A stretch of DNA of 64,000 bases from Prosthecobacter debontii (GTDB lineage Bacteria > Verrucomicrobiota > Verrucomicrobiia > Verrucomicrobiales > Verrucomicrobiaceae). The stretch lies in NCBI GenBank assembly GCA_945860295.1, contig CAMAQH010000007.1, forward strand, positions 62,001 through 126,000, written 5' to 3'. Under the pieces are notes generated by a model. The model had not been told where the DNA came from. It did not search any database and was given only the letters and a program-made list of their open reading frames with translations. This document shows positions 50 to 43,272 of the stretch, in pieces. The position numbers and the translations under genes are program-made. Within the stretch, counting starts at the first letter, position 1. Each line of letters opens with the position of its first letter.

Positions 50-153
50 ATTGGCCTCTTCTATTTTTGATACGTAAGCCCCGGGGATCATCGGTGGCCC
101 CTGCGGACCACCTTGCACAGTTGCTGCCGCAGTTCCTTATTAGGTGCTCTTCC

Positions 154-1365
154 ATGCGCATCCTCCACACCGCAGACTGGCATCTCGGCGCCCGCCTCAT
201 CGAGCGGGATCGACTCGCTGAGCACGCGACCTTTGTGGACTGGCTCATCGAAACGCTGCGCAGCGAGAAGATCGACTCACTGCTTGTTAGCGGCGATGTC
301 TTCGATGCCGCCAATCCGCCGCAGGATGCCGTCGCGCTCTATTTCGACTTCCTCAAGCGCCTCGCCGACCTCAAGACCGTGAAGGCCGTCATCACTGGCG
401 GCAACCACGACTCCGCTTCCCACCTCAACGCTCCGCGCGAGCTGCTGCGCCGCTTTGAGGTCCACGTCTTCGGCCACGCCGGGGATAACATCGTTGATCT
501 TGGCGGTGCGGTCATCGCCGCCGTGCCCTTTCTGCGTGAGCGTGACCTCCGCCAGGCCGCCGCCGGTGAAACGATCACGGTCGTGCATGAGCAAGTCCGC
601 GCCGCCATCCGTGCCCACTATACCTCGCAGCTCGCCGCCGCCCGCATGCTCGCGGACGGGCGACCCGTCATCGCCATGGGCCACCTCACCGTCCTCGGCG
701 CCACGACCAGCGACAGCGAGCGCGACATCCACATCGGCAATCTCGGCTGCGTCGGCGCGGACATCTTTGACGGCTTCGACTACACCGCCCTCGGCCACCT
801 GCACCGCCCGCAACGCGTCGCTGGCAACGAAACCATTCGTTACAGCGGCTCCCCCATCCCCCTCAGCTTCTCCGAAGCCGCCGATGCCAAGTCCGTCGTC
901 ATCATTGACACTCAAAATCATTCTCCTGTCCCCATTCTCCTGTCGAAACCCGACCCCGATCGACAAAAGAATGGGGACAGAAGAATTGATGTTCAGACTC
1001 TGTCCATCCCCACCACCCGCCTGCTCATCCGCGTGAAAGCCGCGCGTGCCACGCTTGTCGCTGATCTTCAGACCGTGCCTGCTGGAGCCTGGGCCGAGGT
1101 CACCGTTAAGCTCGACGCCCCCGAGCCCGACCTCGACCGCCAGGTCCGCGAAGCCGCTGCCGGCCGTTTCGAAACATTAAAAATCCTCGCCGACCGCCCC
1201 GTCTCCGAAACCGCCCCCTGGCAATCCACCGCCCCCACCCTCCACGACCTCCAACCCCGCGACGTCTTCCGCGAACTCCTCAAGGAAAAGCAGATCGAAG
1301 GCGACGAACTCAGCGCCGTGTTTGATGAGCTGCTGGCGTTGAGGGAGGTGAAGATGACGGCGTGA
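154..1365 (+). CDS. sbcD: SbcD, nuclease subunit of the SbcCD DNA exonuclease
   Basis: This is the Mre11-like metallophosphoesterase subunit that, with SbcC, processes hairpins and blocked double-strand ends. The start at 154 gives MRILHTADWHLG, the canonical N-terminus; an upstream in-frame start at 67 adds 29 non-homologous residues. Metal-binding motifs are D8/H10, GD48 and GN84-H85-D86, followed by a GH motif near residue 170 and ALGHLHRP near 212. The protein has 403 residues, normal for the family. Residues about 256-278 are encoded by a palindromic repeat (920-986) between the last phosphoesterase strand and the C-terminal capping domain, so this segment is a lineage-specific insertion. 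SbcC follows after a toxin-antitoxin pair on the opposite strand. The identification is secure. Confidence 0.96.
   Translation: MRILHTADWHLGARLIERDRLAEHATFVDWLIETLRSEKIDSLLVSGDVFDAANPPQDAVALYFDFLKRLADLKTVKAVITGGNHDSASHLNAPRELLRRFEVHVFGHAGDNIVDLGGAVIAAVPFLRERDLRQAAAGETITVVHEQVRAAIRAHYTSQLAAARMLADGRPVIAMGHLTVLGATTSDSERDIHIGNLGCVGADIFDGFDYTALGHLHRPQRVAGNETIRYSGSPIPLSFSEAADAKSVVIIDTQNHSPVPILLSKPDPDRQKNGDRRIDVQTLSIPTTRLLIRVKAARATLVADLQTVPAGAWAEVTVKLDAPEPDLDRQVREAAAGRFETLKILADRPVSETAPWQSTAPTLHDLQPRDVFRELLKEKQIEGDELSAVFDELLALREVKMTA
920..986. repeat. REP-like palindrome inserted in sbcD
   Basis: The left arm (920-945, attctcctgtccccattctc then ctgtcg) and the right arm (961-986) are inverted repeats matching at 23 of 26 positions, with a 15-base spacer. 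The arms contain the core TCTGTCCCCATTCTTTTGTC or its variant. The element lies inside the sbcD reading frame and keeps it open. Repetitive extragenic palindromes are normally intergenic, so a coding location is unusual. No companion transposase is in the window. Confidence 0.75.
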
Positions 1366-11417: not shown

Positions 11418-11688
11418 GAGTGGCGGTATTTCAAAACGGAAGTGGAAATGAGAACTGTCTGAAATTCATGAGCAAAAGGCAAGCCATGACACAATTCTAT
11501 GAGATGGGATCCGCAGGGCATCGTCATCAAAGACGGCCATAGATTAGTTATCCCATTCAAATCAGTATTGCTGGAAGTGACAAATGAGATTTGCTTCGAT
11601 CTTCCGCCGCTTGAGGCTGTGTATCGATTGGAGTCACGTTCTGAATCATGCACTGCGAAGATTCGTCATTTTCGCCCGTAGGTTTGGC
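11418..11688. other. divergent intergenic region between protease and DUF1549/1553 operons
   Basis: About 270 bases separate two divergent transcription units and should hold both promoters. The stretch is noticeably AT-richer than its surroundings. A 60-codon plus-strand frame (11499-11681) and a 99-codon minus-strand frame exist, but neither has a ribosome binding site or resembles a protein I know. I cannot place promoter boxes with confidence. Confidence 0.4.
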
Positions 11689-13917
11689 ATGCTAATTTTG
11701 AAACGCCGAATGATGTCCATAACTCATACCGCCTGGATGGCTGTGATGCTCGTTGGTCCGAGCTTCGCGGCGGAATCCCCACGCCCGATGAATTTTGCCA
11801 ATGACATTGTGCCAATCCTCACAAAGGCGAACTGCAATGCAGGCGCGTGTCATGCGAAGGCAGGCACGGGGCAACGAGGTTTCAGGCTGTCACTGCTGGG
11901 CTTCGAGCCGCAGGAGGATTACGAGCATATTGTGAAGGAGGAGAAGGGACGGCGCGTGTTTCCTCCAGCGCCGGAGCAAAGCCTGCTGCTGCTGAAAGCG
12001 GCCAACATCGTGCCGCATGGTGGCGGTAAGAAGCTGGAGCCGAATTCGGATGGCTATCGGGCACTCGTGCGCTGGATCAGTGAAGGCATGGCCTATGGCA
12101 CCGATGCCGACCCCAAGCTGACGGGCATCGACGTCGAGCCAAAGCGCATGTCGATGAAGATCAAGACAGCGCAGCAGCTCAAAGTAACAGCGCGCTACTC
12201 CGATGGTAGCACGCGGCCCATCACGCACCTCGCGCTGTATGAACCCAATGATAAGAGCATGGCGGAGACCACCGAAGAGGGCGTTGTGAAGACGCTCGAC
12301 ATTCCTGGCAACGTGGCAGTGATGGTGCGCTACTCGGGGCTGGTATCCGTATTTAGCGTGTCGATCCCGCTCGGTGCGCCGGTGGATCAGTTGCCTGCGA
12401 CAAAAAATTTCATCGATCAGTCTGTCTTCGCGAACCTGAAACTGATCGGTGTGCCGCCATCGCCAATTTGTGATGACTCGACCTTCCTCCGCCGTGTCTC
12501 ACTCGATATCGCAGGCCGATTGCCGACCGTGGATGAGACGAAAGCTTTCTTCACCAGCAAAGAACCTGATAAGCGTGACCGCGCCATCGAGTCGCTGCTC
12601 AGCAGTCCCGATTACGCGGATTATTTTGCTAACAAATGGACCGCGCTGCTCAAGAACAGGCGTGATGCAGCCTCGGACATCACCGCCAACTTCGCCTTCC
12701 ATTCCTGGGTGCGTGACAGCTTGCTGGCGAACACACCCTACGACCAAATTGTGCGCCAGGTTCTTGCGGCCACCGGCACCATCTCGGGAAATCCTGCCGT
12801 GGCTTGGTTCAAGCGCGTGAAGGAACCCTATCTGCAAATGGAGGACGTGGCGCAGCTCTTTCTCGGAGTGCGCATGCAGTGTGCGCAGTGCCATCACCAT
12901 CCCTTTGAGCGCTGGAGCCAGCAGGACTACTACAGCCTGACCGCGTTCTTCAGTCAGGTCGGACGTAAGGCGACCACGACAGCCGGCGAGGATCTCGTTT
13001 TCCACAAGCGCGGCATCGCTCAGACGGAAAACAAAAAGACCAAACAGCCCGTGAAGCCTGCGGCTCTCGGCTCACCGACGCTGGACATTCCGGCCGACGA
13101 GGATCCACGCTTGAGGCTCGTCGATTGGATGGCAGACAAGACGAACCCGTTCTTCGCCAAGTCACTGGTAAATCGCTACTGGAAGCACTTCTTCAAACGC
13201 GGCCTCATTGAGCCTGAAGACGATATCCGCGATACCAATCCACCGACGAATCCCGAACTACTCGATGCGCTGGAGAAGCACTTCATCGATAGCGGCTTCG
13301 ATCTCAAAGCCGTCGTGCGCGTCATCGCCCAGAGCCACACGTATCAGCTCAGCTCGACGCCGAACGAGTTCAACGCCGTGGATCGCCAGAACTTCTCCCA
13401 CTTCTATCCGAAACGCATGCAAGCCGAGGTCATGCTCGACTCCATCGACCAACTCACCGGTGGTAAAACCGACTTCGCCGATCTCCCCGCCGGCACGCGC
13501 GCGATCGCGCTGCCTGACAACAGTTACACACGCAGTTCGCCTTTCCTCAAAGTCTTTGGCCGCCCCGAAAGCGCTAGCGTGTGCGAGTGTGAGCGCGTGC
13601 AGTCCTCCAGCCTCGCGCAGAGCCTGCATCTCATGAACGCCGCCGACGTGAAAGCCAAACTCACCGCCGCCGGTGGCCGTGCCGAGCAGATCACCAAAGC
13701 CGAGATGCCCGAGCCCAAACGCATCCGCGAGCTCTACCTCGCCGCCTTCTCCCGCGAACCCAACGCCGACGAAGTCCGCATCAGCGAAACCCACGTCGCT
13801 AAACCCCGCGCCGACGCTCAAGGCAAGCCCCTCGACTCCCAACGCTCCAAACGCCTCGGCTACGAAGACCTGCTGTGGGCGCTACTGAACACGAAGGAGT
13901 TTTTGTACAACCACTAA
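11689..13917 (+). CDS. secreted DUF1549/DUF1553 protein with heme-binding motifs
   Basis: The start at 11689 (MLILKRRMMSITHTAW) gives a basic N-region and a signal peptide ending near GPSFA; 11710 is an alternative. The 742-residue protein has an N-terminal cytochrome-like segment with an atypical C49-x4-C54-H55 spacing. An Ig-like region (MKIKTAQQLKVTARYSDGST) follows, then DUF1549 (VSLDIAGRLPTVDETKAFF), a canonical C398-AQ-C401-H402 motif, and DUF1553 (NPFFAKSLVNRYWKHFFKRG, ESASVCECERVQSSSLAQSL). These families are abundant in Planctomycetota and Verrucomicrobiota, and their reaction is not established. It leads an operon with PPC, WD40 and DUF1501 proteins and ends four bases before the next gene. 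Confidence 0.85.
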   Translation: MLILKRRMMSITHTAWMAVMLVGPSFAAESPRPMNFANDIVPILTKANCNAGACHAKAGTGQRGFRLSLLGFEPQEDYEHIVKEEKGRRVFPPAPEQSLLLLKAANIVPHGGGKKLEPNSDGYRALVRWISEGMAYGTDADPKLTGIDVEPKRMSMKIKTAQQLKVTARYSDGSTRPITHLALYEPNDKSMAETTEEGVVKTLDIPGNVAVMVRYSGLVSVFSVSIPLGAPVDQLPATKNFIDQSVFANLKLIGVPPSPICDDSTFLRRVSLDIAGRLPTVDETKAFFTSKEPDKRDRAIESLLSSPDYADYFANKWTALLKNRRDAASDITANFAFHSWVRDSLLANTPYDQIVRQVLAATGTISGNPAVAWFKRVKEPYLQMEDVAQLFLGVRMQCAQCHHHPFERWSQQDYYSLTAFFSQVGRKATTTAGEDLVFHKRGIAQTENKKTKQPVKPAALGSPTLDIPADEDPRLRLVDWMADKTNPFFAKSLVNRYWKHFFKRGLIEPEDDIRDTNPPTNPELLDALEKHFIDSGFDLKAVVRVIAQSHTYQLSSTPNEFNAVDRQNFSHFYPKRMQAEVMLDSIDQLTGGKTDFADLPAGTRAIALPDNSYTRSSPFLKVFGRPESASVCECERVQSSSLAQSLHLMNAADVKAKLTAAGGRAEQITKAEMPEPKRIRELYLAAFSREPNADEVRISETHVAKPRADAQGKPLDSQRSKRLGYEDLLWALLNTKEFLYNH

Positions 13918-13921
13918 CATT

Positions 13922-16141
13922 ATGATCACGATAATCAGCCATTCCATCACCTTCGGCATGTTGTGCGCCTGGCTCGTTGCGCCTTGCTTCGCGCAGCAGG
14001 TTACTCAGCCACTTCCACGTTTGCTCACAGTCACGCCGATGGGCGGACAGGTGGGCACGAATGTGGAGGTCACGATCACGGGGGACAGCATTGAAGACGT
14101 CCGCGAGTTGCTTTTCTCGACGTCGAAGATCACGGCGAAGCCTGTCACGGGAACGGATAACAAATTCATCGTCAGCATCGCGGCGGATGCGCCGGTGGGT
14201 GTACATGATGCGCGGGTGATGTCGCGGCTCGGCATTTCGTCAGCGCGGGCGTTTTCGGTGGGCAAGTTGCCCGAGGTGACTCGCAGCAAGCCAAATAACA
14301 CGTTGGAGACAGCGCTGGCGCTGGCCACCAACTCCGTCTGTAACGCGGTGATGACCAAGCGCGCGGTGGACTTCTATTCGTTTAAAGGAGTGAAGGGCAA
14401 ACGCGTGGCACTGGATTGCGCCTCGGTGGGTATTGACTCCAAGCTGACGCCGGTGCTCATCATCGCAGATGCTCAAGGACGTGATTTGATGGTGAATCGG
14501 ACAAGTGGTGTGCTCGACTTCACGCCGCCTGCGGATGGCACTTATGTGGCGAAAGTTCATGGCCTCACCTTCCAGGGTGGTGCGGAGCATTTTTACCGTC
14601 TCGCCCTGCAGGATGGCCCTGCGCCGCGTCAGGCGGCTACGGCTACGGTGAGCTCGATGTCTTGGCCGCCGACGGGCCTTGCCGCGACCGCGAAGGCCAA
14701 CGAGACCGAGCCAAATAATCAGCACACTCAGGCTCAGAAGGTCACGCTACCGTTGGATGTCGCGGGCAGCTTCTTCCCGGCTGCGGATGTCGATACGTAT
14801 GAGTTCTCCGCCAAGAAAGGCGAGGTCTGGTGGGTGGAAGTCGCCAGTGAGCGTCTTGGATTGGCCACCGATCCCTTTGTGCTCGTGCAACGTGTCACGA
14901 AGACGGGTGACAAGGAAACCCTCACGGATGTGGCGGAGCTTTATGACATCGCCAGTCCGATGAAGGTCACCAGCAACGGCTACTCGTATGATGGACCTGT
15001 TTATGATGCGGGATCGCCCGATGTGATGGGCAAAGTCGAGATCAAAGAAGATGGCGTGTATCGCCTGCAACTGCGGGATTTGTTCGGCGGCACGCGCAGT
15101 GATGCGGGCAATGTCTATCGCCTCATCGTGCGCCAAGCCGCGCCTGATTTTGCCCTCGCTTCATGGGCCGTTCACATGACGCTCCGCAATGGCGACCGCG
15201 CGGCGCTTTCCAAGCCGCTGGCTCTGCGCGCGGGCAATACGGTGGCCTTTGAGGTTGCGGTGATCCGTCGTGATGGTTTTGATGGCGAGATCGAGCTCGG
15301 CATGGAAGGTCTGCCTTCAGGAGTGACGGCTGCGGGCTTAAAGATCGCAACGGGCAAATCCATGGGCCACATGATCATCAGTGCTGCTGGAGATGCCAAG
15401 CCCGTGTTCGCAATCGCGAAGATGTTTGGCCGCGCGACGATCAATGGTGCTGCGGTGACTCGTCCGTGCCGTGTTGCATCGGTGGAGTGGCCGGTGAAGG
15501 ACGCCACAGGAGACATCCCCGCACCGCGACTCATGGCGGACATTCCTGTGACGGTCAGCGATTCTGAGTCAGCCCCCATCACCATCACCGCGAGTGAAAA
15601 CAAAGTTTGGGGAGCCAAAGCCGGTGAGACACTCAAAATCCCGCTCAAGATCGCCTGGCGCAATGAATTCAACGGCACCTCGATCAAGCTGAAGGCCTAC
15701 GGTACTGGTTTTGATGGCCTCAAGGAGTTCGATCTTCCGCTCAAAGCCGCCACGCAGGATGCAGTGCTCGATCTCGCTGCATTGAAGATAGCGGCCGGTG
15801 ATTACAGCCTCGCCTTTTATGGCATCGGTATCACCAAATACCGCTACAACGCAGCCGCCGTGCCCACGGCAGAGGCGGCACTCAAAAAAGCCGAACAAGA
15901 GGCCACTGCTGCAGCGGTAGCAGTTAAGACAGTCGCTGCCACGGATGCTACCGCTTTGAAATTGGCCACTGAAAAACAGAAACTTGCCGATACAGCAAAA
16001 GCCGATGCCGCCAAGCGCCTAAAGACCGTCACGGACGCAGCCGAAGCCAAAGACACCGTCGATATTTTCGTCTCAGAGCCGATCCGCATTTCGGTGAAGG
16101 CCGTGCAAGTCACCACCGCCGCCGCAACCCCGAAGAAATGA
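13922..16141 (+). CDS. secreted PPC-domain protein, first of a tandem pair
   Basis: This 739-residue exported protein has a signal peptide ending at CFAQ. It starts with an IPT/TIG-like strand set (RLLTVTPMGGQVGTNVEVTI), followed by two bacterial pre-peptidase C-terminal (PPC) domains: VDFYSFKGVKGKRVALDC near residue 145, and ADVDTYEFSAKKGEVWWVEV near 285. Other beta-sandwich segments follow. Near the C-terminus an Ala/Lys-rich helical stretch (about residues 645-705) is inserted before the last strand DIFVSEPIRISVKA. No enzyme motif is seen, so a binding or structural role is likely. Its paralogue follows immediately, overlapping by ATGA if the first ATG is used. Confidence 0.8.
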   Translation: MITIISHSITFGMLCAWLVAPCFAQQVTQPLPRLLTVTPMGGQVGTNVEVTITGDSIEDVRELLFSTSKITAKPVTGTDNKFIVSIAADAPVGVHDARVMSRLGISSARAFSVGKLPEVTRSKPNNTLETALALATNSVCNAVMTKRAVDFYSFKGVKGKRVALDCASVGIDSKLTPVLIIADAQGRDLMVNRTSGVLDFTPPADGTYVAKVHGLTFQGGAEHFYRLALQDGPAPRQAATATVSSMSWPPTGLAATAKANETEPNNQHTQAQKVTLPLDVAGSFFPAADVDTYEFSAKKGEVWWVEVASERLGLATDPFVLVQRVTKTGDKETLTDVAELYDIASPMKVTSNGYSYDGPVYDAGSPDVMGKVEIKEDGVYRLQLRDLFGGTRSDAGNVYRLIVRQAAPDFALASWAVHMTLRNGDRAALSKPLALRAGNTVAFEVAVIRRDGFDGEIELGMEGLPSGVTAAGLKIATGKSMGHMIISAAGDAKPVFAIAKMFGRATINGAAVTRPCRVASVEWPVKDATGDIPAPRLMADIPVTVSDSESAPITITASENKVWGAKAGETLKIPLKIAWRNEFNGTSIKLKAYGTGFDGLKEFDLPLKAATQDAVLDLAALKIAAGDYSLAFYGIGITKYRYNAAAVPTAEAALKKAEQEATAAAVAVKTVAATDATALKLATEKQKLADTAKADAAKRLKTVTDAAEAKDTVDIFVSEPIRISVKAVQVTTAAATPKK

Positions 16142-16179
16142 TGGTTCACGTTCAGCGACACACTCATCGAAGGCTTCGT

Positions 16180-18483
16180 ATGGGACATGTAAAAAGCAGG
16201 CTTTCAAGAATAGGCATTCTCTTCGCCCTCGGTCTGTTGGGCTTGTGGCCAGCCACCCCGAGTTTCTCTCAACAAGTCTGTCTTCCTGCGCCTCGGTTAC
16301 TCACGGTGATGCCGATGGGTGGACAAGTTGGCACGAATGTTGAGGTCAGCATCACTGGCGAAAATATAGTAGAGGTCAGTGCTCTGCTTTTTTCGACACC
16401 CAAGATCACCGCAAAACCAGTCGTTGGTGCGGATGGAAAGTCCGTGGAGAATAAATTTCTTGTCACCATTTCGGCGGATGCACCAACCGGTGTGCATGAT
16501 GCGAGAGTGCTGTCGCGTCTGGGTATTTCGGCGGCGCGTGCTTTCTCAGTGGGCCGTCTGCCAGAGGTGAATCGCGGTTTGCCAAACAACTCGGTGGAAA
16601 CTGCCATGGCAATTAAACTGAACTCTGTTTGCAACGCGGTGACGACGAAGCGGCTAGTGGATTTCTATTCATTTGAAGCTGTGAAGGGTAAGCGCGTCGT
16701 CGTGGATTGCGCAGCGACAGGGATTGACTCAAAACTCACTTCAGTGGTGATTATCGCCGATGCTCAAGGACGTGATTTGCTGGTGAATCGCACGGGTGGA
16801 GCTCTCGATTTCACGCCGCCTGCGGATGGCACCTATCTGATCAAACTTCACAGCCTCACGTTCCAAGGCGGAGTTCAGCATTTTTACAGGTTGGCGTTGC
16901 AGGAGGTTGCGGGCAATGGCCCCGTGCCGCGCCAGCCAGCCACGGCGGCAGTGAGTTTCATGTCTTGGCCACCGGAAGGCTTGGCCACAACGGCGAAGGC
17001 GAATGAAACTGAGCCAAATAATCAGCCTGCGCAGGCACAGAAGATGTCGTTGCCATGCGATATTGCGGGCAGTTTTTTCCCAGCGGCTGATGTCGATACC
17101 TTTGAGTTCTCAGCAAAGAAGGGTGAGACCTGGTGGGTCGAAGTTGCTTCCGAGCGCCTCGGTCTGCCCACTGATCCGTTTGTTCTCGTGCAACGTGTCA
17201 CCAGGACAGGCGACAAGGAGACTCTCGCGGACGTGGCCGAGCTTTATGACATTCCAAGCCCGATGAAGGCTGGTATTTATGTCCCCGCCTCATCTTACGA
17301 TGGCCCGCCATATGATGCTGGATCCCCCGATGTTCTGGGTAAAGTTGAGGTCAAAGAGGACGGAATGTATCGCCTGCAACTGCGGGATTTGTTCGGTGGC
17401 ACACGCAGTGACGCGAGCAACGTCTATCGCCTCATTATTCGGCAGGCAGCCCCGGATTTTAAGCTCGTCGCCTGGGCTGCGCATATGCAACTGCGCCAAA
17501 ATGATTTCGGCACTATATCCAAGCCTATCGCCATGCGCGCGGGTGCAACGATGGCGTTTGAGGTGGTTGTCGTGCGCCGGGACGGTTTCGATGGTGACAT
17601 CGATCTGGTAATGGAAGGTCTGCCTCCGGGTGTGACTGCACGCGGTTTGAAGATCCCCGCCGGCAAGGCACAGGGCATGATTTTCATCACTGCTGCTGTG
17701 AATGCCAAGCCCGCGTTTGCGATCGCGAAAATGATTGGTCGTGCAACGATCAATGGTGCCAGTGTCACGCGTCCATGTCTTCTCGCCTCCATGGAATGGC
17801 CTGTGGAATACGCGCCGAGTGAATTCCCGACATCCCGTCTCGTGGCTGATGTGCCGATGTCCGTGAGTGACTCAGAGAAGTCTCCCGTTAGCATCGCAGC
17901 AAGCGAAGATAAAGTATGGGAGGCCAAAGCCGGAGAAACTCTAAAGATACCGCTCAAGCTCACATGGAGAAACGAGTTCAACGGCACTTCCGTTAAATTT
18001 AAGGCATACGGAACCTTCTTTGGAGGCATGAAGGAGATGGACGTGCCGATCAAAGCCGCCACATCCGAGGCAGTTCTTGATCTTGCTGCATTAAAGACTC
18101 CACCTGGTGATTACACATTCGCATTGAAGGGTATCGGCATCACCAAATATCACCCCAGCCAAGACACGGTTAAGATGGCTGACGAACAGCTCAAGAAAGC
18201 GGCACAGGAAGTCACAACCCTCACCGCTGCCGCAAAAAATCTTGCTGGTAAAGTCACCACTGCGCAAGCCGCAGAGAAGGCCGTAGCCGCCAACGCTGCG
18301 AAGATCGCCGCAGGGAAACAAAAGGTGGCTGAAGTCGCTATGGCCGACGCCACTAAACTCTTGAAGACCGTCACTGCTGCCGCCGCACCGAAGGACATCC
18401 TAGATATTCTCGTATCCGAGCCCATTCGGATTTCCGTCAAAGCCGCTCAAGTCGCCTCAGTAGTCGCAACCCCGAAGAAATAA
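16180..18483 (+). CDS. secreted PPC-domain protein, second of a tandem pair
   Basis: This is a paralogue of the preceding gene with the same domain order and long stretches of near identity (for example PRLLTV-PMGGQVGTNVEV and the ADVDT-EFSAKKGE-WWVEV segment). From the ATG at 16180, which has a GAAGG-like site just upstream, it has 767 residues and a signal peptide ending at SFSQ. The first in-frame ATG at 16138 would overlap the previous stop. The C-terminal helical insert is longer than in the paralogue (about residues 665-745). The stop TAA shares one base with the start of the WD40 gene, so the operon is tightly coupled. Confidence 0.8.
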   Translation: MGHVKSRLSRIGILFALGLLGLWPATPSFSQQVCLPAPRLLTVMPMGGQVGTNVEVSITGENIVEVSALLFSTPKITAKPVVGADGKSVENKFLVTISADAPTGVHDARVLSRLGISAARAFSVGRLPEVNRGLPNNSVETAMAIKLNSVCNAVTTKRLVDFYSFEAVKGKRVVVDCAATGIDSKLTSVVIIADAQGRDLLVNRTGGALDFTPPADGTYLIKLHSLTFQGGVQHFYRLALQEVAGNGPVPRQPATAAVSFMSWPPEGLATTAKANETEPNNQPAQAQKMSLPCDIAGSFFPAADVDTFEFSAKKGETWWVEVASERLGLPTDPFVLVQRVTRTGDKETLADVAELYDIPSPMKAGIYVPASSYDGPPYDAGSPDVLGKVEVKEDGMYRLQLRDLFGGTRSDASNVYRLIIRQAAPDFKLVAWAAHMQLRQNDFGTISKPIAMRAGATMAFEVVVVRRDGFDGDIDLVMEGLPPGVTARGLKIPAGKAQGMIFITAAVNAKPAFAIAKMIGRATINGASVTRPCLLASMEWPVEYAPSEFPTSRLVADVPMSVSDSEKSPVSIAASEDKVWEAKAGETLKIPLKLTWRNEFNGTSVKFKAYGTFFGGMKEMDVPIKAATSEAVLDLAALKTPPGDYTFALKGIGITKYHPSQDTVKMADEQLKKAAQEVTTLTAAAKNLAGKVTTAQAAEKAVAANAAKIAAGKQKVAEVAMADATKLLKTVTAAAAPKDILDILVSEPIRISVKAAQVASVVATPKK

Positions 18484-21400
18484 TGCTCACCGCCCGAACA
18501 CTTACCGCACGTTGCATCTTTGTAGCCTTGGCTTTGCCCGCGGCATCCATGATTCATGCCGCCGATCTCGATTTTTATCGGGATGTGTATCCATTCCTCA
18601 AAGCCAACTGCATCTCCTGTCATAACAAGACGACGACAAAGGCGGATCTTGACATGGAGACGCCGGAGATGATGAAAAAGGGCGGTGAAACAGGTGCGGG
18701 GGTCGTGCCGGGGAAGAGTGCGGAAAGTTTGATCGTGCAGGCTTCCTTGCACACAGAGGATTTGGAGATGCCGCCGAAGAATAACAAATCTGGCGCGGTG
18801 AATCTCACGCCAGCAGAGATCGCCATCCTTAAGGCATGGATTGATCAAGGCGCGAAAAGCTCGGTGCAGCAGGAGCGCCAGGTGGCATGGCAACCGCTGG
18901 CTCCAGGCGTGCATCCGATCTACAGCGTGGCGATGACCAAAGATGGCCGTCTCGCCGCGTGCGGACGGTCAAACCAGCTTTTTGTCTATGATCTGGCCAC
19001 GCGTCAGTTTGTGACGCAGATCGTCGATGAAGCACAAAAGACCGGCGTGGCGCATCGCGCTTTGGTTCAGTCGTTAGCCTTCAGTCCCGATGGCACAAGA
19101 CTGGCGAGCGGCAGTTATCGTGAGGTGAAGATCTGGCGGCAGGAGAAAGGTAAATCGACAACGCGTAAAGGCGACGCGGCACTCGGCGTGGTCGTGTCTG
19201 CACTCACGAGCGATGGCAAGCAGATCATTGCTGCCGATAAAGCAGGCGCGTTGCTCGTGATGGATGCCGTGAGTGGCAAAGTGACCAAAAAGATCGCCGA
19301 CGTGAACAAATCAGGCATCAAGCTCCTGAGTGTTTCGCCTGATGCATCCAAGGTGGCCGTGTATGGAGTCGATGCGGCACTCAGTGTGTGGAATTTGATC
19401 GATGCAAAAGTTCTCACCACAAAGACCGGGCCAGCAGGTCTTTACGCCACGGCATGGACGAATGATGGCAAGGCAATCGCCACTGCGGGCGAAGACAAAA
19501 TCGTGCGAGTGTGGACGATCCCCGCAGCAGGAAGTGCGGAGTTTGCAGCTCCAAAGGAACTCAAGGGCGCGGTGGGAACGATCAAGGTCATGGCGGCAGG
19601 CGCGACACCGGATCAACTCATCACCGCAGGTGAAGATAACAAACTGCGAGTTTGGAGCATCGCAGCGGCGAAAATCGTGCGCGAAATCCCCAACGTCGGC
19701 GCTCTCAACCTCGCCGTGTCACGCGACGGCAAGCAGATCGTCACAGGAGGTGCGGATGGTGCTGTGCGTGTTTGGGATGCTGAAAACGGCAAGCCAATCA
19801 CTGAACTGCGCGGCAGCGTGGCAACGACTCAGCAAATGGCGGCGTGGGATTGGATTGTTGCTGCGCAAGGATTAGAACAGGCCTTTCAAAAAACCGCAGT
19901 GACTCGTATCGAAGCACAAAACAAAGCGCTCGATGAACTGCTCAAGAAGGCCAACGAAGCCATCGTCGCGATGAAGAAAGTGCTGCCTGAGAAGCAGAAG
20001 GCCGTGAAGCCTGCGCAAGATGCAAAAGCGGCTGCGCAGAAGGTTGTGGATGATGTGGTGGTGCTGATTGCCAAGGCAGCGGATTTGCAGAAGCAACACA
20101 AGCAAGCGCGCGAAAAGCTCGCGGCAACTTCAGCAGCAGAGACGGTCGCAGTGGCCGCTCAATCCACGGCGGAGACAAACGTCAAAACTGCCGAAGCCGA
20201 AGTTAAACGCATCACCGATGCCAAGACAGCAGGCGGCAAAGACCTCGATGAACCGCTCAAGAAGGCCAACGAGAAACTCGCCTCGATAAATAAGGCTTTG
20301 CAGACGAAGCAACTGGCCGTCAAAGCCGCGCAAGATGCGGAAGCTGCCGCGCAGAAGTTGGTTGCGGATGTGACGGCCTTGATAGCGAAGGAGTCCGCCG
20401 GGAAACCGGATGGGGCATTGGAAAAACAACTCAAAGACGCTCAGGAAAAACTGGGTCCAGTCACGATGACCGAGAACTCCGCTCTCGCCGCCGTTTCCGC
20501 AGCGCAAAGCAACGTGAAGGATGCGGAAGACGATTTAAAGCGCATCACCATGAGCAAGGAAAAGAACGGCGAAGCCCTCGCCGCTGCTAATGCGGCCATT
20601 GCAGCTGCCAAGAAGGCTCAGGATAAGGCCGCGGCGGATCTCGCGGCTGCCAAACTGGCGTTGACGAAGAGTAGCCTGAAACCGCTGGCCGTCGCTTTCT
20701 CCACCGATGCGCAGCGTGTCGCCGCCACCTTTAGCGATGGCACGCTCAACGTCTGGGCGATCGCCTCAGGCATTCCCGTTGAGCAAGTCACGGGTTCTGG
20801 ATCTACGGCTGCATCTTTGATCCACAGCGCCAATGGCACCTTCTTCGCCAGCAATGCCGACAGCTCCACTTCGACCACTAGCGCGGCATCCCGCTGGGTT
20901 CTTGAGCGCGTGCTTGGTGGCGACAAAGACCGCGCCATTTTCGCCGACCGCGTGAATGCCGTGCACTTCAGTCCTGATGGCAAAATCCTCGTCACAGGCG
21001 GTGGCGAGCCTTCACGCTCTGGCGACATCAGCCTGTTCGATGTTACCACAGGCAAGGTCATCAGCACCTGGAAAGAGCGCCACGACGACGTGGTGCTCAG
21101 CCTTGATTTCTCACCCAATGGCAAGCTCCTCGCCTCCGGTTCCTCCGACAAAATTGCGCGTGTCACTGACATCGCCACCGGCAAACAGACCAACCTTTTT
21201 GAAGGCCACACGCATTACGTCACCAGCGTGGCCTTCCGCGCCGATGGTCGCGTTCTTGCCACCGCCGGAGCCGATGGCATCGTGTGTGCCTGGGACATGA
21301 TCATGGGTGAGCGAAAGAAGAAAATCGAAGGCTGGACCAAGGAGGTGACTTCATTGCAGTTCATCGGTGCCACCAATCAAATCGTCACCTCCGCTGGCGA

Positions 21401-21590
21401 CAATCTCGTGCGCATCATCAACGACGACGGCATCGAAGTCCGCGCCCTTTCCAAGCTGCCCGACTTCATGCAATCCGCCGCCAGCACCCCCAACGGCAGC
21501 ACCATCATCGGCGGCGGCGAAGACAGCATCCTCCGCGTCTGGGACGGCAAGAATGCCAAAGAGGTCGCGGTGTTTGGAGGGAAGCATTAG
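18483..21590 (+). CDS. secreted cytochrome c-like / WD40 / coiled-coil protein
   Basis: The 1035-residue protein has a signal peptide ending near IHAA, then a planctomycete-type cytochrome domain with C43-IS-C46-H47 and the distal LEMPPKNN Met region. Six WD40 repeats occupy about residues 140-460 (blades such as SLAFSPDGTRLASGSYREVK and GEDNKLRVWSIA). A coiled coil of about 250 residues (475-725) made of two tandem copies of a roughly 105-residue unit interrupts them. A second WD40 set fills 730-1030 (SPNGKLLASGSSDKIARVTD, ADGRVLATAGADGIVCAWDM). It should be an electron-transfer-capable scaffold outside the cytoplasm. Gene order ties it to the PPC and DUF1501 proteins. Confidence 0.85.
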   Translation: MLTARTLTARCIFVALALPAASMIHAADLDFYRDVYPFLKANCISCHNKTTTKADLDMETPEMMKKGGETGAGVVPGKSAESLIVQASLHTEDLEMPPKNNKSGAVNLTPAEIAILKAWIDQGAKSSVQQERQVAWQPLAPGVHPIYSVAMTKDGRLAACGRSNQLFVYDLATRQFVTQIVDEAQKTGVAHRALVQSLAFSPDGTRLASGSYREVKIWRQEKGKSTTRKGDAALGVVVSALTSDGKQIIAADKAGALLVMDAVSGKVTKKIADVNKSGIKLLSVSPDASKVAVYGVDAALSVWNLIDAKVLTTKTGPAGLYATAWTNDGKAIATAGEDKIVRVWTIPAAGSAEFAAPKELKGAVGTIKVMAAGATPDQLITAGEDNKLRVWSIAAAKIVREIPNVGALNLAVSRDGKQIVTGGADGAVRVWDAENGKPITELRGSVATTQQMAAWDWIVAAQGLEQAFQKTAVTRIEAQNKALDELLKKANEAIVAMKKVLPEKQKAVKPAQDAKAAAQKVVDDVVVLIAKAADLQKQHKQAREKLAATSAAETVAVAAQSTAETNVKTAEAEVKRITDAKTAGGKDLDEPLKKANEKLASINKALQTKQLAVKAAQDAEAAAQKLVADVTALIAKESAGKPDGALEKQLKDAQEKLGPVTMTENSALAAVSAAQSNVKDAEDDLKRITMSKEKNGEALAAANAAIAAAKKAQDKAAADLAAAKLALTKSSLKPLAVAFSTDAQRVAATFSDGTLNVWAIASGIPVEQVTGSGSTAASLIHSANGTFFASNADSSTSTTSAASRWVLERVLGGDKDRAIFADRVNAVHFSPDGKILVTGGGEPSRSGDISLFDVTTGKVISTWKERHDDVVLSLDFSPNGKLLASGSSDKIARVTDIATGKQTNLFEGHTHYVTSVAFRADGRVLATAGADGIVCAWDMIMGERKKKIEGWTKEVTSLQFIGATNQIVTSAGDNLVRIINDDGIEVRALSKLPDFMQSAASTPNGSTIIGGGEDSILRVWDGKNAKEVAVFGGKH

Positions 21591-21695
21591 ATTGGCCGAG
21601 TGAGATGGAATCTGGTGCGGCTGTGCTCCTCGATAAACAAGACTGCCGGCCCCCGTAGTCCTCCGCGCTTGTCTTCCCTCATTCAGCCACCCTCC

Positions 21696-23093
21696 ATGAT
21701 TCGCTGCGCCGGTCCGATGTCGCGGCGTGGGTTCATGGACTTCGGGTTGGCGGGGCTGGCGACGCTGAGTTGGCCGGGCTTGATGAAGCTGCGCGCGGAG
21801 AATGCGCTGAAGCCGAGGAGCGAGCGCACGGCGGTGATCATGGTGTTTCTGCCGGGCGGACAGTCGCACATCGACACCTATGATCCGAAGTCGGACGCGA
21901 GCAGTGAGTATCGCGGGCCGTTCAAGACGATCTCCACGAAGGTGCCGGGCACGCACTTCACGGAGTTGATGCCGATGCAGGCAAAGATCGCGGACAAGTT
22001 CACGGTGTTGCGCTCGATGAATCAAACGGCGGGCGGGCATCCGGCGGGTACCTTGCAAATGCTCTCGGGCGATCCCGACACACGCGACAAGCCGGCGCCG
22101 CGACTGCCGGACTGGATGTCGGTGGCGCATTACTTGCGCTCCAAAGATCCGCAGCGCCCGCAGACCTTGCCAAACTATGTCAGCGTGAATCCGATCAATG
22201 CGTCTTACTGCGGACCGGCGTATCTGGGCGAGTCCTATGCGCCGTTCTCGGTGAGCGATGATCCGAATCGTCCGAACTTTGAGGTGCCTAATATCGGCTT
22301 GTCGGATGAGGCGGAGACGCGGCGGCTGAGCGACCGCGTCGCTTTGCGTCGGAGCCTCGACAAGATGGAGCGTGCGTTTGATCGCGAGGGCGAACTCGGT
22401 GCGCTCGATCAGTTTGAGTCGCAGGCGATGTCGCTGCTCACGAGTCCGCAGACACGCGATGCCTTTGATCTTAGCAAAGAGGATGCGCGGACACGAGATC
22501 GTTACGGGCGCAATCGCTGGGGGCAGCAGTTGCTACTGGCGCGTCGTCTGGTGGAGTCGGGCGTGGAGATCATCACCAGCAGCTTGCATGGTCCTCTGTG
22601 CGGTCGCACTCAGGTTTGGGACGATCATGCGGTGGATCATCACATCTTTGAGGCGCTGCGCTTCCGCATGGGAAACTACGATCAGGCGGTGTCCGCGCTG
22701 ATCGAGGATATTTATGCGCGTGGTCTCGACAAGCGCGTGCTCGTGGTCGTCACGGGTGAGTTTGGGCGCACACCGAAGATTACCTTTGATCGCAGCACGG
22801 GTGCAGGAGATGCCAGCGGACCTGCGGGCACGTTGCAACCGGGTCGCGACCACTGGCCGCGCGCTTTTTCAAACATCTGGGCAGGCGGCGGCATCCAGAC
22901 AGGTGCGGTCATCGGTGCCACGGATAAACGCGGCGAGGACGTGATCGAGCGGCCCTGCAGTGCGGGGGATTTCCTCGCGACGATCTATCACCATCTCGGA
23001 ATCGACGCCCCAAAGGTCACGATCAAGGATTTCAATGGCCGCCCGACGCCGATCGTCGATCACGGCAGGCCTATTCCTGAGTTGATGGCATGA
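21696..23093 (+). CDS. Tat-exported DUF1501 protein, first of a tandem pair
   Basis: The ATG at 21696 gives MIRCAGPMSRRGFMDFGLAG, with a twin-arginine motif; the frame is open further upstream, but that extension has no signal character. The 465-residue protein belongs to DUF1501, a family with an alkaline phosphatase/sulfatase-like fold. Marks are VIMVFLPGGQSHIDTYDPK, LRSMNQTAGGHPAGTLQM, RYGRNRWGQQLLLARRLVES, VVVTGEFGRTPK and GRDHWPRAFSNIWAGGGI. Catalytic activity of the family is unproven. It follows the WD40 protein by about 105 bases and is about four-fifths identical by eye to the next gene. Confidence 0.87.
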   Translation: MIRCAGPMSRRGFMDFGLAGLATLSWPGLMKLRAENALKPRSERTAVIMVFLPGGQSHIDTYDPKSDASSEYRGPFKTISTKVPGTHFTELMPMQAKIADKFTVLRSMNQTAGGHPAGTLQMLSGDPDTRDKPAPRLPDWMSVAHYLRSKDPQRPQTLPNYVSVNPINASYCGPAYLGESYAPFSVSDDPNRPNFEVPNIGLSDEAETRRLSDRVALRRSLDKMERAFDREGELGALDQFESQAMSLLTSPQTRDAFDLSKEDARTRDRYGRNRWGQQLLLARRLVESGVEIITSSLHGPLCGRTQVWDDHAVDHHIFEALRFRMGNYDQAVSALIEDIYARGLDKRVLVVVTGEFGRTPKITFDRSTGAGDASGPAGTLQPGRDHWPRAFSNIWAGGGIQTGAVIGATDKRGEDVIERPCSAGDFLATIYHHLGIDAPKVTIKDFNGRPTPIVDHGRPIPELMA

Positions 23094-23150: not shown

Positions 23151-24572
23151 ATGTCCTCCATCATTCATCCTCCTTCTCTTGCTCGTTGCACTGGTCCTAT
23201 CTCGCGGCGGGGATTCATGCAGGTCGGATTGACGGGGTTTGCCTCATTGAGCTGGCCGGGGTTGCTGAAGTTGCGCGCTGAGAATGCGCTCAAACCGAAG
23301 AGCGAGCGGACGGCGGTGATCATGGTGTTTTTACCGGGCGGGCAGTCACACATCGACACCTATGATCCGAAGCCGGACATCGGCAGTGAGTATCGTGGCC
23401 CATTCAAGACGATCGCCACCAAGGTGCCGGGCACACGCTTCACGGAATTGCTGCCGATGAATGCCAAGATCGCCGACAAGTTCACCGTGCTGCGCTCAAT
23501 GAACCAAGCAGCAGGCGGGCACCCCGCTGGCACCATGCAGATGCTCTCGGGTGATTCCGACACGCGTGATAAACCGAAAGTTAAACTACCGGATTGGATG
23601 TCAGTGGCCAATTATCTGCGCTCTAAAGACGGGAAGCGCACCAACCCGCTGCCGAACTATGTCGGGGTGAGTCCACCCAGCGAATACAATGGCCCGGCCT
23701 ATCTTGGTGATGCGTATTCGCCCTTCTCCGTCACGGATGATCCGAATCGCCCTAACTTTGAAGTGCCAAACACGGGTCTCTCTGATGCGTCGGAGTCGAA
23801 GCGTTTGAGTGATCGTGTCGCGCTCCGCAAGAGCCTGGACAAAATGGAGCGCGCCTTTGACCGTGAGGGTGAACTCGGTGCGCTCGATGAATTTGAATCT
23901 CAGGCGATGACGCTACTCACGAACCCGAAGACACGCGATGCCTTTGATCTTAGCAAAGAGGAAGCTCACACGCGGGACCGCTACGGTCGCAATCGCTGGG
24001 GCCAGCAGCTGCTGCTCGCGCGTCGTCTCGTCGAATCAGGTGTGGAAATCGTCACCACTCAGTTGAGCGGGCCGCTCTGTGGACGCGTTAACAATTGGGA
24101 CGACCATGCGGTGAATCAGCATCAGTTCGAGGCCCTGCGTTTCCGCATGCCAAATTACGACCGAGCCGTCTCAGCGCTCATTGAGGACGTTTACGCTCGT
24201 GGCTTGGGCAAGCGCGTGCTGGTTGTTGTCACGGGTGAGTTTGGCCGCACGCCGAAGATTAGTTTTGATCGTAGCACGGGTGCTGGCGATGCCAGTGGCC
24301 CTGCGGGTACGCTCCAGCCGGGTCGTGATCACTGGCCGCGTGCATTCACCAATATCTGGGCCGGTGGCGGCATCCAGACTGGCGGCATCATCGGAGCCAG
24401 CGACAAGCGCGGTGAAGACGTCATCGAGCGCCCATGCGGCCCAGGCGACTTCCTAGCGACGATTTATCATCACCTCGGCATCGATGGCACCAAAGTTTTC
24501 ATCAAGGACTTCAACGGACGCCCCACACCCATCGTCGATCATGGCAAGCCAATCCCCGAGCTGATCACGTGA
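23151..24572 (+). CDS. Tat-exported DUF1501 protein, second of a tandem pair
   Basis: This 473-residue paralogue of the preceding gene starts MSSIIHPPSLARCTGPISRR with the twin-arginine motif in ISRRGFMQVGLTG. All the segments listed for the first copy recur, for example FLPGGQSHIDTYDPKPD, MNQAAGGHPAGTMQMLSG and VVVTGEFGRTPKISFDRSTG. Differences cluster around residues 155-185 and in the segment TTQLSGPLCGRVNNWDDHAV, which may affect substrate choice. The gap to the first copy is only 57 bases. The pair looks like a local tandem duplication with divergence. Confidence 0.87.
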   Translation: MSSIIHPPSLARCTGPISRRGFMQVGLTGFASLSWPGLLKLRAENALKPKSERTAVIMVFLPGGQSHIDTYDPKPDIGSEYRGPFKTIATKVPGTRFTELLPMNAKIADKFTVLRSMNQAAGGHPAGTMQMLSGDSDTRDKPKVKLPDWMSVANYLRSKDGKRTNPLPNYVGVSPPSEYNGPAYLGDAYSPFSVTDDPNRPNFEVPNTGLSDASESKRLSDRVALRKSLDKMERAFDREGELGALDEFESQAMTLLTNPKTRDAFDLSKEEAHTRDRYGRNRWGQQLLLARRLVESGVEIVTTQLSGPLCGRVNNWDDHAVNQHQFEALRFRMPNYDRAVSALIEDVYARGLGKRVLVVVTGEFGRTPKISFDRSTGAGDASGPAGTLQPGRDHWPRAFTNIWAGGGIQTGGIIGASDKRGEDVIERPCGPGDFLATIYHHLGIDGTKVFIKDFNGRPTPIVDHGKPIPELIT

Positions 24573-35989: not shown

Positions 35990-37513
35990 ATGAAAACTAT
36001 ACTCTTCCTCGCCACTCTCTCGCTGTCGTCAGCAGCGTTCGCCCAAACGAGCCCAAACAAAACTGACCAACCCATCAAGCCTTACAATGTCTTGTTCATC
36101 GCCGTTGACGACCTGAACGACTGGGTCGGGTGCTTCGGCGGCAACTCGCAGGCGATCACGCCCAACCTTGACCGGCTCGCCAAAGAGCATGCCATGGTGA
36201 TGAACAAAGCCTATTGCGCGTCCACGGTCTGCTGCCCGAGCCGCTCGGCGATCCTGACCGGCAAACGCCCCTCCACGACGGGCATTTACGGCAATACGCA
36301 AGACCTGAAGAAGGCCCCCAAAGCCAAGGATGTCGTCACCCTTCCGCAATACTTCGCCAAGAACGGCTACCACACGCTTTCCACTGGAAAGATCTTCCAC
36401 AAGCATCCCACGTCTGAGGGGATGGATGAGGGCCAATGGGCGTTCCAAGAGTTCGCTGAAGGCGGAGGTGGCAACAAAGGCATGCTCTGGGAAGAATCCC
36501 CGTCATCCGCTATAGGCGTAAAAGCCGAAGAAAAGGGCCAAGAGAAAGGGGAGGAAAAGGAAGTGGCGAGGTGGGGGGCGTGCAAAGCACCTGTCGAAGA
36601 GACCAAGGATTATGTCGCCTGCCAATGGGCCGCCGATCAGCTCAAGCGCGATTTCGACGGCAAGCCGTTCTTCATGGCCCTGGGCATCTCCAAACCGCAT
36701 CTGCCGTGGATCGTCCCACAGCAGTTTTTTGACCTCTATCCACTGGAGCAGATCAAGCCCGTCGAAATCTTCCGCGACGATCTCAACGACATCGTGGACG
36801 CGAATGGAAAACGCCTGTTCAAGTCTTCGATTGGCTCGTTTGACGCGATCGACAAAGCCAACATGCACAAGCAAGCGCAACGCGCCTACCTGGCAAACAT
36901 CAGCTACGTGGATCACTGCCTGGGTGTGCTGTTCGATGCGTTGAAGAAGAGCCAGTATGCTGACAACACCATCCTCATGCTGTGGGGCGATCACGGCTGG
37001 CATCTGGGCGAGAAGACGAAATACGGCAAAACCGATCTCTGGGAAGAATCGGACCGCGTGCCCTTCATGGTCCGCGTGCCCGGCATGACTCCCGCCGACG
37101 TCAAATGTGATGGCGTCGTCAACCTGCTCGATATGTATCCCACGTTGGTCGAACTGTGCGGACTCCCGCCCAATGCGGAAAACGAAGGACGTAGCTTTGT
37201 GCCTTTGCTGAAGGACCCGAAAAGGGAGTGGAATCATCCCACCCTGACCACCTACCAGTTCAGCAACCATTCCCTCACCGATGGCCGTTACCGCTACACC
37301 TGGTATGGCGGCAAAGCGAATGGCACCGAGGAACTCTACGACCACAGCACCGATCCTCTGGAACACAAAAATCTGGCCGCGAATCCCGAATCCAAGGAAA
37401 TCATGGCCAAGTTCAGAGTACTCCTGCCTGCGCACAACGAGCCTGACTCCCCCACCAACAAGGATGACAAAAAAGCCATGCGCAAAGCGGGCAAGAAAAA
37501 GGGCGCCGAGTAG
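35990..37513 (+). CDS. exported type I sulfatase, iduronate-2-sulfatase-like
   Basis: This 507-residue secreted sulfatase has a signal peptide ending at AFAQ. The metal site D40-D41 (FIAVDDLNDWVG) and the maturation motif C81-CPSR (residues 81-85) are present; C81 should become formylglycine. Later motifs KTDLWEESDRVPFMVRVPG and DHGWHLGEKTKYGK are those of the iduronate-sulfatase/choline-sulfatase branch. A charged stretch at about 173-203 (VKAEEKGQEKGEEKEVARW) is an unusual insertion. It would remove sulfate esters from a glycan. No formylglycine-generating enzyme is in the window, so maturation must be encoded elsewhere. Confidence 0.9.
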   Translation: MKTILFLATLSLSSAAFAQTSPNKTDQPIKPYNVLFIAVDDLNDWVGCFGGNSQAITPNLDRLAKEHAMVMNKAYCASTVCCPSRSAILTGKRPSTTGIYGNTQDLKKAPKAKDVVTLPQYFAKNGYHTLSTGKIFHKHPTSEGMDEGQWAFQEFAEGGGGNKGMLWEESPSSAIGVKAEEKGQEKGEEKEVARWGACKAPVEETKDYVACQWAADQLKRDFDGKPFFMALGISKPHLPWIVPQQFFDLYPLEQIKPVEIFRDDLNDIVDANGKRLFKSSIGSFDAIDKANMHKQAQRAYLANISYVDHCLGVLFDALKKSQYADNTILMLWGDHGWHLGEKTKYGKTDLWEESDRVPFMVRVPGMTPADVKCDGVVNLLDMYPTLVELCGLPPNAENEGRSFVPLLKDPKREWNHPTLTTYQFSNHSLTDGRYRYTWYGGKANGTEELYDHSTDPLEHKNLAANPESKEIMAKFRVLLPAHNEPDSPTNKDDKKAMRKAGKKKGAE

Positions 37514-37534
37514 TCAGAACTGCGGGAACTCCCT

Positions 37535-37654
37535 GTGAGCTACGAACGCGAACTCAAGCCCGCCATGCAAGAGTGAATAATCCTCCAGCGCGACTTCCTC
37601 CCACTTCCAGTGACGCCCACCGAAGGGCCTGGTGCCCAGAAAGGCAAACACTAA
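37535..37654 (+). pseudogene. possible remnant of a gene 3' end
   Basis: Between the sulfatase and DUF1552 genes one frame reads VSYERELKPAMQE, a TGA, then IILQRDFLPLPVTPTEGPGA and a TAA. The wording looks like coding sequence broken by a nonsense codon rather than random intergenic sequence. I do not recognise the parent family. It may be the tail of a deleted gene, but chance is not excluded. Confidence 0.2.
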
Positions 37655-37672
37655 ACCAACTCCATCAATCCT

Positions 37673-38932: not shown

Positions 38933-38941
38933 GGCCGCGCA

Positions 38942-38956
38942 GTGCTTCAAAAGCAC
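38942..38956. other. small perfect hairpin after the DUF1552 gene
   Basis: A six-base-pair stem GTGCTT/AAGCAC with a three-base loop starts ten bases after the DUF1552 stop. There is no T-run behind it, so it is at best a weak or attenuating terminator or an mRNA 3' end stabiliser before the next gene at 39044. Confidence 0.25.
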
Positions 38957-39043
38957 GGGCGTAATGCACGGTATTGCGGCGGCTCAACAACTTTGAATAC
39001 CCATTATCTTGCCAACAAATCCAATCAACGCAGGGTTCAAATC

Positions 39044-41077: not shown

Positions 41078-41097
41078 TTTTCATTTCACGAAGCATC

Positions 41098-43254: not shown

Positions 43255-43272
43255 TCTCCCAAATACAATCAC

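Follow-up and report, generated by a model that had tools for sequence, protein, structure and literature searches.

Proteins that combine planctomycete-type cytochrome (PSCyt) domains with WD40 repeats occur in Planctomycetes and Verrucomicrobia, and He et al. (2017) list WD40 among the protein–protein interaction domains of PSCyt-encoding genes, whose functions are given as unknown (PMC5615132). The word 'coiled' is absent from the main text of that account, and its passages on these genes make no mention of a hairpin, nested rings or a duplication. Here we analyse a 64,000-nucleotide stretch of Prosthecobacter debontii DNA (the window; assembly GCA_945860295.1, contig CAMAQH010000007.1, positions 62,001 to 126,000 of the forward strand), in which the gene at 18483-21590 encodes a haem-WD40 protein of this known, uncharacterised kind in a variant form, with a tandem duplication inside the long helical insert between its two groups of WD40 blades. 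We favour, as moderately probable, a reading in which this protein is an exported mono-haem nested double propeller that carries a single, tip-duplicated hairpin and acts as an extracytoplasmic scaffold. Its features are as follows.

18483-21590, + strand: PSCyt1-WD40 haem protein gene, 1035 residues
18483-18560, + strand: signal-peptide-like N-terminus, residues 1-26 (...MIHA then AD), from inspection of the translation by eye
18609-18779, + strand: PSCyt1 mono-haem c domain, from Pfam PF07635 and a conserved C..CH
18609-18623, + strand: CISCH, residues 43-47, within the PSCyt1 domain
18909-19160, + strand: blades 1-2 of the proposed conserved outer propeller, from model strands and long-form mean identities of 0.67 and 0.72
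19176-19814, + strand: blades 3-7 of the proposed variable inner propeller, from model strands, conservation and the short-form clade
19818-20228, + strand: hairpin arm 1, residues 446-582, with nearly all of copy 1 and the ancestral turn lost, from the model helix and the repeat
19920-20234, + strand: duplication copy 1, residues 480-584, from protein alignment
20229-20246, + strand: predicted position of the new hairpin turn, where the two copies meet, residues 583-588, from the AlphaFold model
20235-20546, + strand: duplication copy 2, residues 585-688, from protein alignment
20247-20666, + strand: hairpin arm 2, residues 589-728, with nearly all of copy 2, from the model and alignments
20676-20918, + strand: blades 8-9, the rest of the proposed inner propeller, from model strands and conservation
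20931-21575, + strand: blades 10-14, the rest of the proposed outer propeller, from identities of 0.66-0.77 and a structure alignment over residues 143..1032

The helical insert after blade 7 comprises 283 residues (446-728) in the window protein, and the sequence between the WD40 groups is rich in alanine, lysine and glutamate. An initial annotation of this DNA had described a coiled coil of about 250 residues made of two tandem copies of about 105 residues; the long helical insert and the two copies hold, the length is revised to 283, and the copy bounds it gave (19921-20235 and 20245-20580) lie close to those measured. Residues 480-584 and 585-688 align with 55 identical positions and a global score of 210, against a mean of 11, a standard deviation of 12 and a maximum of 50 in 1000 shuffles. 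The corresponding DNA repeat (19922-20076 versus 20237-20391, spacing 315) is 72% identical. These alignments confirm, at the level of sequence, a 105-residue tandem duplication, and the copies are not an assembly echo because 28% of bases differ even across the best 155-nucleotide block.

To place the duplication among relatives, we searched 59 genomes from the family (E ≤ 1e-40), 288 from the order (E ≤ 1e-120) and 387 from the phylum (E ≤ 1e-60), and each count of matches includes the window's own genome. Matches were present in 49 of 59 family genomes, 77 of 288 order genomes and 4 of 387 phylum genomes, the last being the window's own and three of the same family at a threshold that would miss remote relatives. 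The haem-WD40 protein is thus found mainly in the window's order, where the architecture, initially described as unusual, is common and the long arm is not. From the fetched loci (best matches first, capped at 30 loci for each genome search), a crude composition scan gathered 53 distinct open reading frames (ORFs), the window's included. Counted between residues 443 and 736 of the window protein, the insert is 292 residues long in the window and has a single-copy length of 174-189 residues in all 52 other ORFs (187 in 41, 188-189 in 3, 185 in 2, 183 in 4 and 174 in 2). The excess of 105 residues over the usual 187 equals exactly 15 heptads. No such excess was found among 78 continuous matches across the region in 76 other genomes, in which differences from a single-copy query ranged from -30 to +17, and the window is the only case of the duplication seen among the relatives examined.

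Structure prediction suggests how the added residues are accommodated. The AlphaFold model of a single-copy relative (L031) has helices at residues 446-531 (86 residues) and 539-623 (85 residues) with one turn. In the window model the arm helices extend over 137 and 140 residues, a single helix passes through the old turn of copy 1, the turn is placed at the copy junction (583-588), and the helix of arm 2 is broken at 638-642, where the ancestral GKPD turn survives. The insert is predicted to be helical in both models and not a disordered loop, and we infer that the helices pair antiparallel within the hairpin. Dividing each copy into halves A and B (A1 and B1 in copy 1, A2 and B2 in copy 2), we observed that A1 is closer than A2 to every one of the 52 relatives (mean identity 0.68 versus 0.46) and that the same holds for B2 over B1 (0.64 versus 0.44), with relatives compared among themselves averaging 0.63 for A and 0.62 for B; these relatives share ancestry, so the counts record one history and not 52 independent tests. 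This identity pattern fits a history in which the base of the hairpin, formed by A1 and B2, retained its ancestral pairing and B1 and A2 became a new tip. The ancestral hairpin would have had about 86 residues per arm and, with 0.15 nm per residue, an arm length of about 13 nm. An in-frame 315-nucleotide tandem duplication centred on its tip in the window's genome would then have left the outer halves in their old pairing, set the inner halves to pair mutually and shifted the turn to the copy junction, resulting in arms of about 137-140 residues and about 20 nm. Lengthening of one hairpin, with arms about half as long again, fits these data because the outer halves resemble relatives more and copy 1 has lost the old turn. 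One-step lengthening of a hairpin through a duplication centred on its tip appears to be new here. For the hairpin, no informative solved relative was found (best E 0.086).

The hairpin was initially placed between two propellers. The product has a strong WD40 match (PF00400, E 2.8e-56), and the window model has 28 strands N-terminal and 28 C-terminal to helices 446-582, 589-637 and 643-728, which we read as 14 predicted four-stranded blades, seven on each side of the helices, in agreement with the two WD40 groups originally noted around the insert. The models, blade conservation and a clade of short forms point instead to a hairpin within the inner of two nested rings. The top ring matches begin in or just before blade 1 and finish in blade 14 in both models: 7bie_A matches the window model over residues 143..1032 (Z 42.6, root-mean-square deviation 1.4, 283 of 286 aligned), and one seven-blade ring matches the L031 model over residues 139..927 (Z 40.0, root-mean-square deviation 1.7, 283 aligned), each range being given by its end residues only. 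Among 16 long forms, identity is 0.66-0.77 for blades 1, 2 and 10-14 and 0.36-0.50 for blades 3-9, with no overlap. Because structure matches, blade conservation and short-form blade loss together favour nesting, a conserved outer ring (blades 1, 2 and 10-14) probably encloses a variable inner ring (blades 3-9) that carries the hairpin; we infer the ring membership of each blade. A haem-bearing outer seven-blade ring would thus have received an inserted inner seven-blade ring, into which an antiparallel two-helix hairpin would be inserted between blades 7 and 8. Known double propellers, among them the AIP1 homologue 1nr0 (two seven-bladed propellers, from its entry title), Pwp2 (5i2t) and subunits of the small-subunit (SSU) processome, also place WD40 propellers in one long chain, and in 9n6z_LQ, as in the window protein, the matched ring spans a long chain range (65..687) for 285 residues. 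The probable nesting appears to be new here. To our knowledge, the AIP1 homologue, Pwp2 and SSU-processome double propellers have no haem domain and no comparable hairpin.

Short forms make up 33 of the 53 ORFs and have an N-region of 143-154 residues; their columns for blades 4 and 5 are empty, and blades 1, 2 and 7-14 are retained. We built a quick tree of 57 rows from an alignment that left out blades 3-6 and the extra copy. With the paralogue omitted and L092 (N-region 200) scored as short, the long or short state changes once on this tree, and the branch bearing 40 short rows has a Shimodaira–Hasegawa-like approximate likelihood ratio test (SH-aLRT) value of 93; 16 of 54 inner branches are unresolved. 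Between L063 and L102, a distant paralogue in the window's genome, the alignment has no gaps across the hairpin. Three ORFs (L074, L075 and L076, from G123, G091 and G166) have a second helical-looking insert of about 110 residues between blades 4 and 5, with a hairpin-like turn motif clearest in L074. Local scores of this insert against the main hairpin, as its possible source, are 123, 91 and 86, with shuffle means of 79, 64 and 66, standard deviations of 9, 8 and 9, and maxima of 115, 95 and 108; only the first score lies above its shuffle maximum.

PF07635 (PSCyt1) matches residues 43-99 with E 2.6e-12 and 47.6 bits against a cut-off of 22, scored on a 150-residue N-terminal piece of the product, and this score above the gathering cut-off together with the conserved CxxCH places the product in the PSCyt1 family, in agreement with the c-type haem motif recognized at the outset. 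C..CH is kept in all 49 ORFs that reach the motif position (4 of the 53 end before it), which are the window's and 48 of 48 others. The product is probably exported, as first proposed, to judge from the signal-like residues 1-26, and its start codon forms part of a TAATG overlap with the gene upstream. An NCBIfam search of the product gave only matches far below cut-off, and for the PSCyt1 haem domain no informative solved relative was found (best E 0.78).

Several observations weigh against the nested, single-hairpin reading. For the rings, the structure matches give only first and last residues, so that the grouping of blades 1-2 with 10-14 rests on conservation and deletion; they cover one of the two proposed seven-blade rings. 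The window and L031 models share one four-sequence alignment, their mean predicted local distance difference test (pLDDT) scores are 70.8 and 69.3, and the haem domain scores below 50 throughout both; therefore the head cannot be placed. In the short forms, blade 3 columns are 47% filled and 28% identical to the window, residues that we read as a linker, and blade 6 columns are 10% filled. The distant paralogue L102 also lacks most of blades 3-6, and blades may thus have been lost twice or more, or the root state may differ. Two consecutive seven-blade propellers (1-7 and 8-14), with the coiled coil as a long spacer, would explain why seven predicted blades precede the helices in the sequence and seven follow them. 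We consider this arrangement quite unlikely: in both models the top ring matches run from blade 1, or just before it, to blade 14, blades 1-2 match 10-14 in conservation and blades 8-9 match 3-7 in variability, and the short forms would be left with a remnant of three blades, two of them highly conserved.

For the hairpin, pLDDT blocks of 51-82 in the window model, lowest at residues 631-650, and the fact that conserved outer halves are one of four possible patterns, with 52 kindred rows amounting to one event, also count against a single lengthened arm. The same modest confidence and its minimum, the presence of both half-arms in each copy and the old turn motif kept in copy 2 would suit two successive hairpins or a four-helix bundle, which we judge unlikely given that copy 1 has lost its old turn, that the model helix is continuous there, that the model turn lies at the copy junction and that it is the inner halves that have diverged. 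Coiled coils often form oligomers, and both arms show a periodicity of 3.46-3.5 in their large hydrophobic residues, as would be expected if arms of two or more molecules zipped together; the nearly equal arms and the GKPD-like turn midway in relatives argue against oligomerisation and make it rather improbable, although whole hairpins might still associate with one another. The extra 105 residues could also be neutral, a duplication without functional consequence, since they occur in one genome only and the inner halves have drifted. We find this doubtful, though conceivable, because frame, heptad phase and predicted helix are preserved despite base divergence of at least 28% between the copies, and length changes are rare among relatives.

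The window protein is encoded within a recurrent gene cluster, in which the window gene order is PSCyt2-PSD1, PPC, PPC, the haem-WD40 gene, DUF1501 and DUF1501. The neighbouring genes are as follows.

11584-13917, + strand: PSCyt2-PSD1 protein, with CAQCH at residue 433 and CNAGACH at residue 84, from Pfam, motifs and synteny
13922-16141, + strand: PPC-domain-like protein, copy 1, with PPC at 24.5 bits, just under the 25.9 cut-off
16138-18483, + strand: PPC-domain protein, copy 2, with PPC at 30 bits and an Ala/Lys-rich C-terminal stretch
21600-23093, + strand: DUF1501 copy a, with a twin-arginine N-terminus (RR at residue 42), PF07394 E 1.5e-83
23151-24572, + strand: DUF1501 copy b, with RR at residue 19, PF07394 E 3.3e-83

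DUF1501-containing clusters have been discussed for bacteria of the Planctomycetes, Verrucomicrobia and Chlamydiae (PVC) group with intracellular membranes, and the DUF1501 module of Kamneva et al. (2012), as described in the same source (PMC4452313), similarly groups a DUF1501 gene with genes for signal-peptide proteins. We counted synteny by hand in 33 loci, 32 belonging to relatives (two each from G011 and G018) plus the paralogue locus L102 of the window's genome, several of which stop at a contig edge. Besides the adjacent genes at 21600 and 23151 in the window, DUF1501 lies beside the haem-WD40 gene in 27 of 33 loci and PPC in 24 of 33; all four families occur together in 20 of 33, and L102 has the same four-gene order. 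Because the PSCyt2-PSD1 protein has both CAQCH and CNAGACH, the cluster may encode two haem proteins. In one relative (L033:3-3773), the PPC protein and the haem-WD40 protein share one reading frame, the former leading directly into the haem domain without a second signal-like segment. A second candidate PPC fusion in G178 (L108) was rejected, as its 1560-residue frame crosses an unknown base (X) and retains a signal-like segment, probably at an assembly gap; long open frames in L107, L129 and L130 were likewise set aside, as they overlap the PPC ORF in a different frame.

Tandem duplicates stand on both sides of the haem-WD40 gene (PPC pair 69% identical, DUF1501 pair 83%), and G203 (L124) likewise has two DUF1501 genes, whose identities to copies b and a are 92% and 89%. 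The C-terminal part of the PPC proteins (for example window 18170-18395) is Ala/Lys-rich and helical-looking, before a last conserved segment that ends near VSxPIRxSVK. Residues 178-278 of the PSCyt2-PSD1 protein resemble teneurin-like protein chains (E 3.4e-17), and for DUF1501 copy a no informative solved relative was found (best E 0.2). Elsewhere in the window, 35990-45750 holds a second planctomycete-type group, with a sulfatase, DUF1552 (HXXSHH), DUF4832 and a PSD3/PSD5/PSD4/PSCyt3/PSD2 protein that has its own PSCyt1.

Most likely the protein would function outside the cytoplasm as a haem-bearing scaffold for the proteins of its cluster, with an arm that spaces a partner or grips it, and the gene cluster makes a scaffold with a redox head plausible. 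The core of haem and outer ring, held fixed by the conserved ring, would dock the DUF1501 protein and the haem protein PSCyt2-PSD1, and the haem could exchange electrons with the latter. The partner spaced or gripped by the hairpin may be the PPC protein because of that protein's own helical-looking C-terminal stretch and the in-frame fusion in L033. Weighing against this scaffold, three of the 33 loci (L114, L121 and L126) have no detected partner in the fetched stretch, L103 has PSD1 alone beside the haem-WD40 gene, and the fusion comes from one metagenome-assembled genome contig that is cut off inside the PPC part. The haem-WD40-hairpin architecture was not described in titles or abstract openings among the open-licence matches listed.

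A more specific reading, to which we give little weight, is that the hairpin is a molecular spacer setting the cell-envelope distance between the haem-bearing propeller core and a partner; it is suggested because hairpin length is nearly fixed (187 in 41 of 52 ORFs) and alignment to the distant paralogue is gapless. A parallel is offered by coiled-coil spacers of conserved length (PMC5082667) and by the E. coli protein Lpp (PMC8824477), in that length is largely kept while sequence diverges, and the single length change seen in the window hairpin is a whole number of heptads; the difference is that the coil here is predicted to fold back on itself as an intramolecular hairpin carried by a propeller, and its role as spacer or ruler is only proposed. 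If the hairpin is such a spacer, the window's genome would carry a natural length mutant that gained 15 heptads in one step, and tip duplication would be a way for an antiparallel hairpin to grow with the pairing at its base kept. The family offers several handles: its architecture is defined, the four-gene cluster recurs, and one fusion and one arm-length variant occur naturally. In the letters of the gene itself, the duplication indicates that a long antiparallel hairpin can be extended by one mutation.

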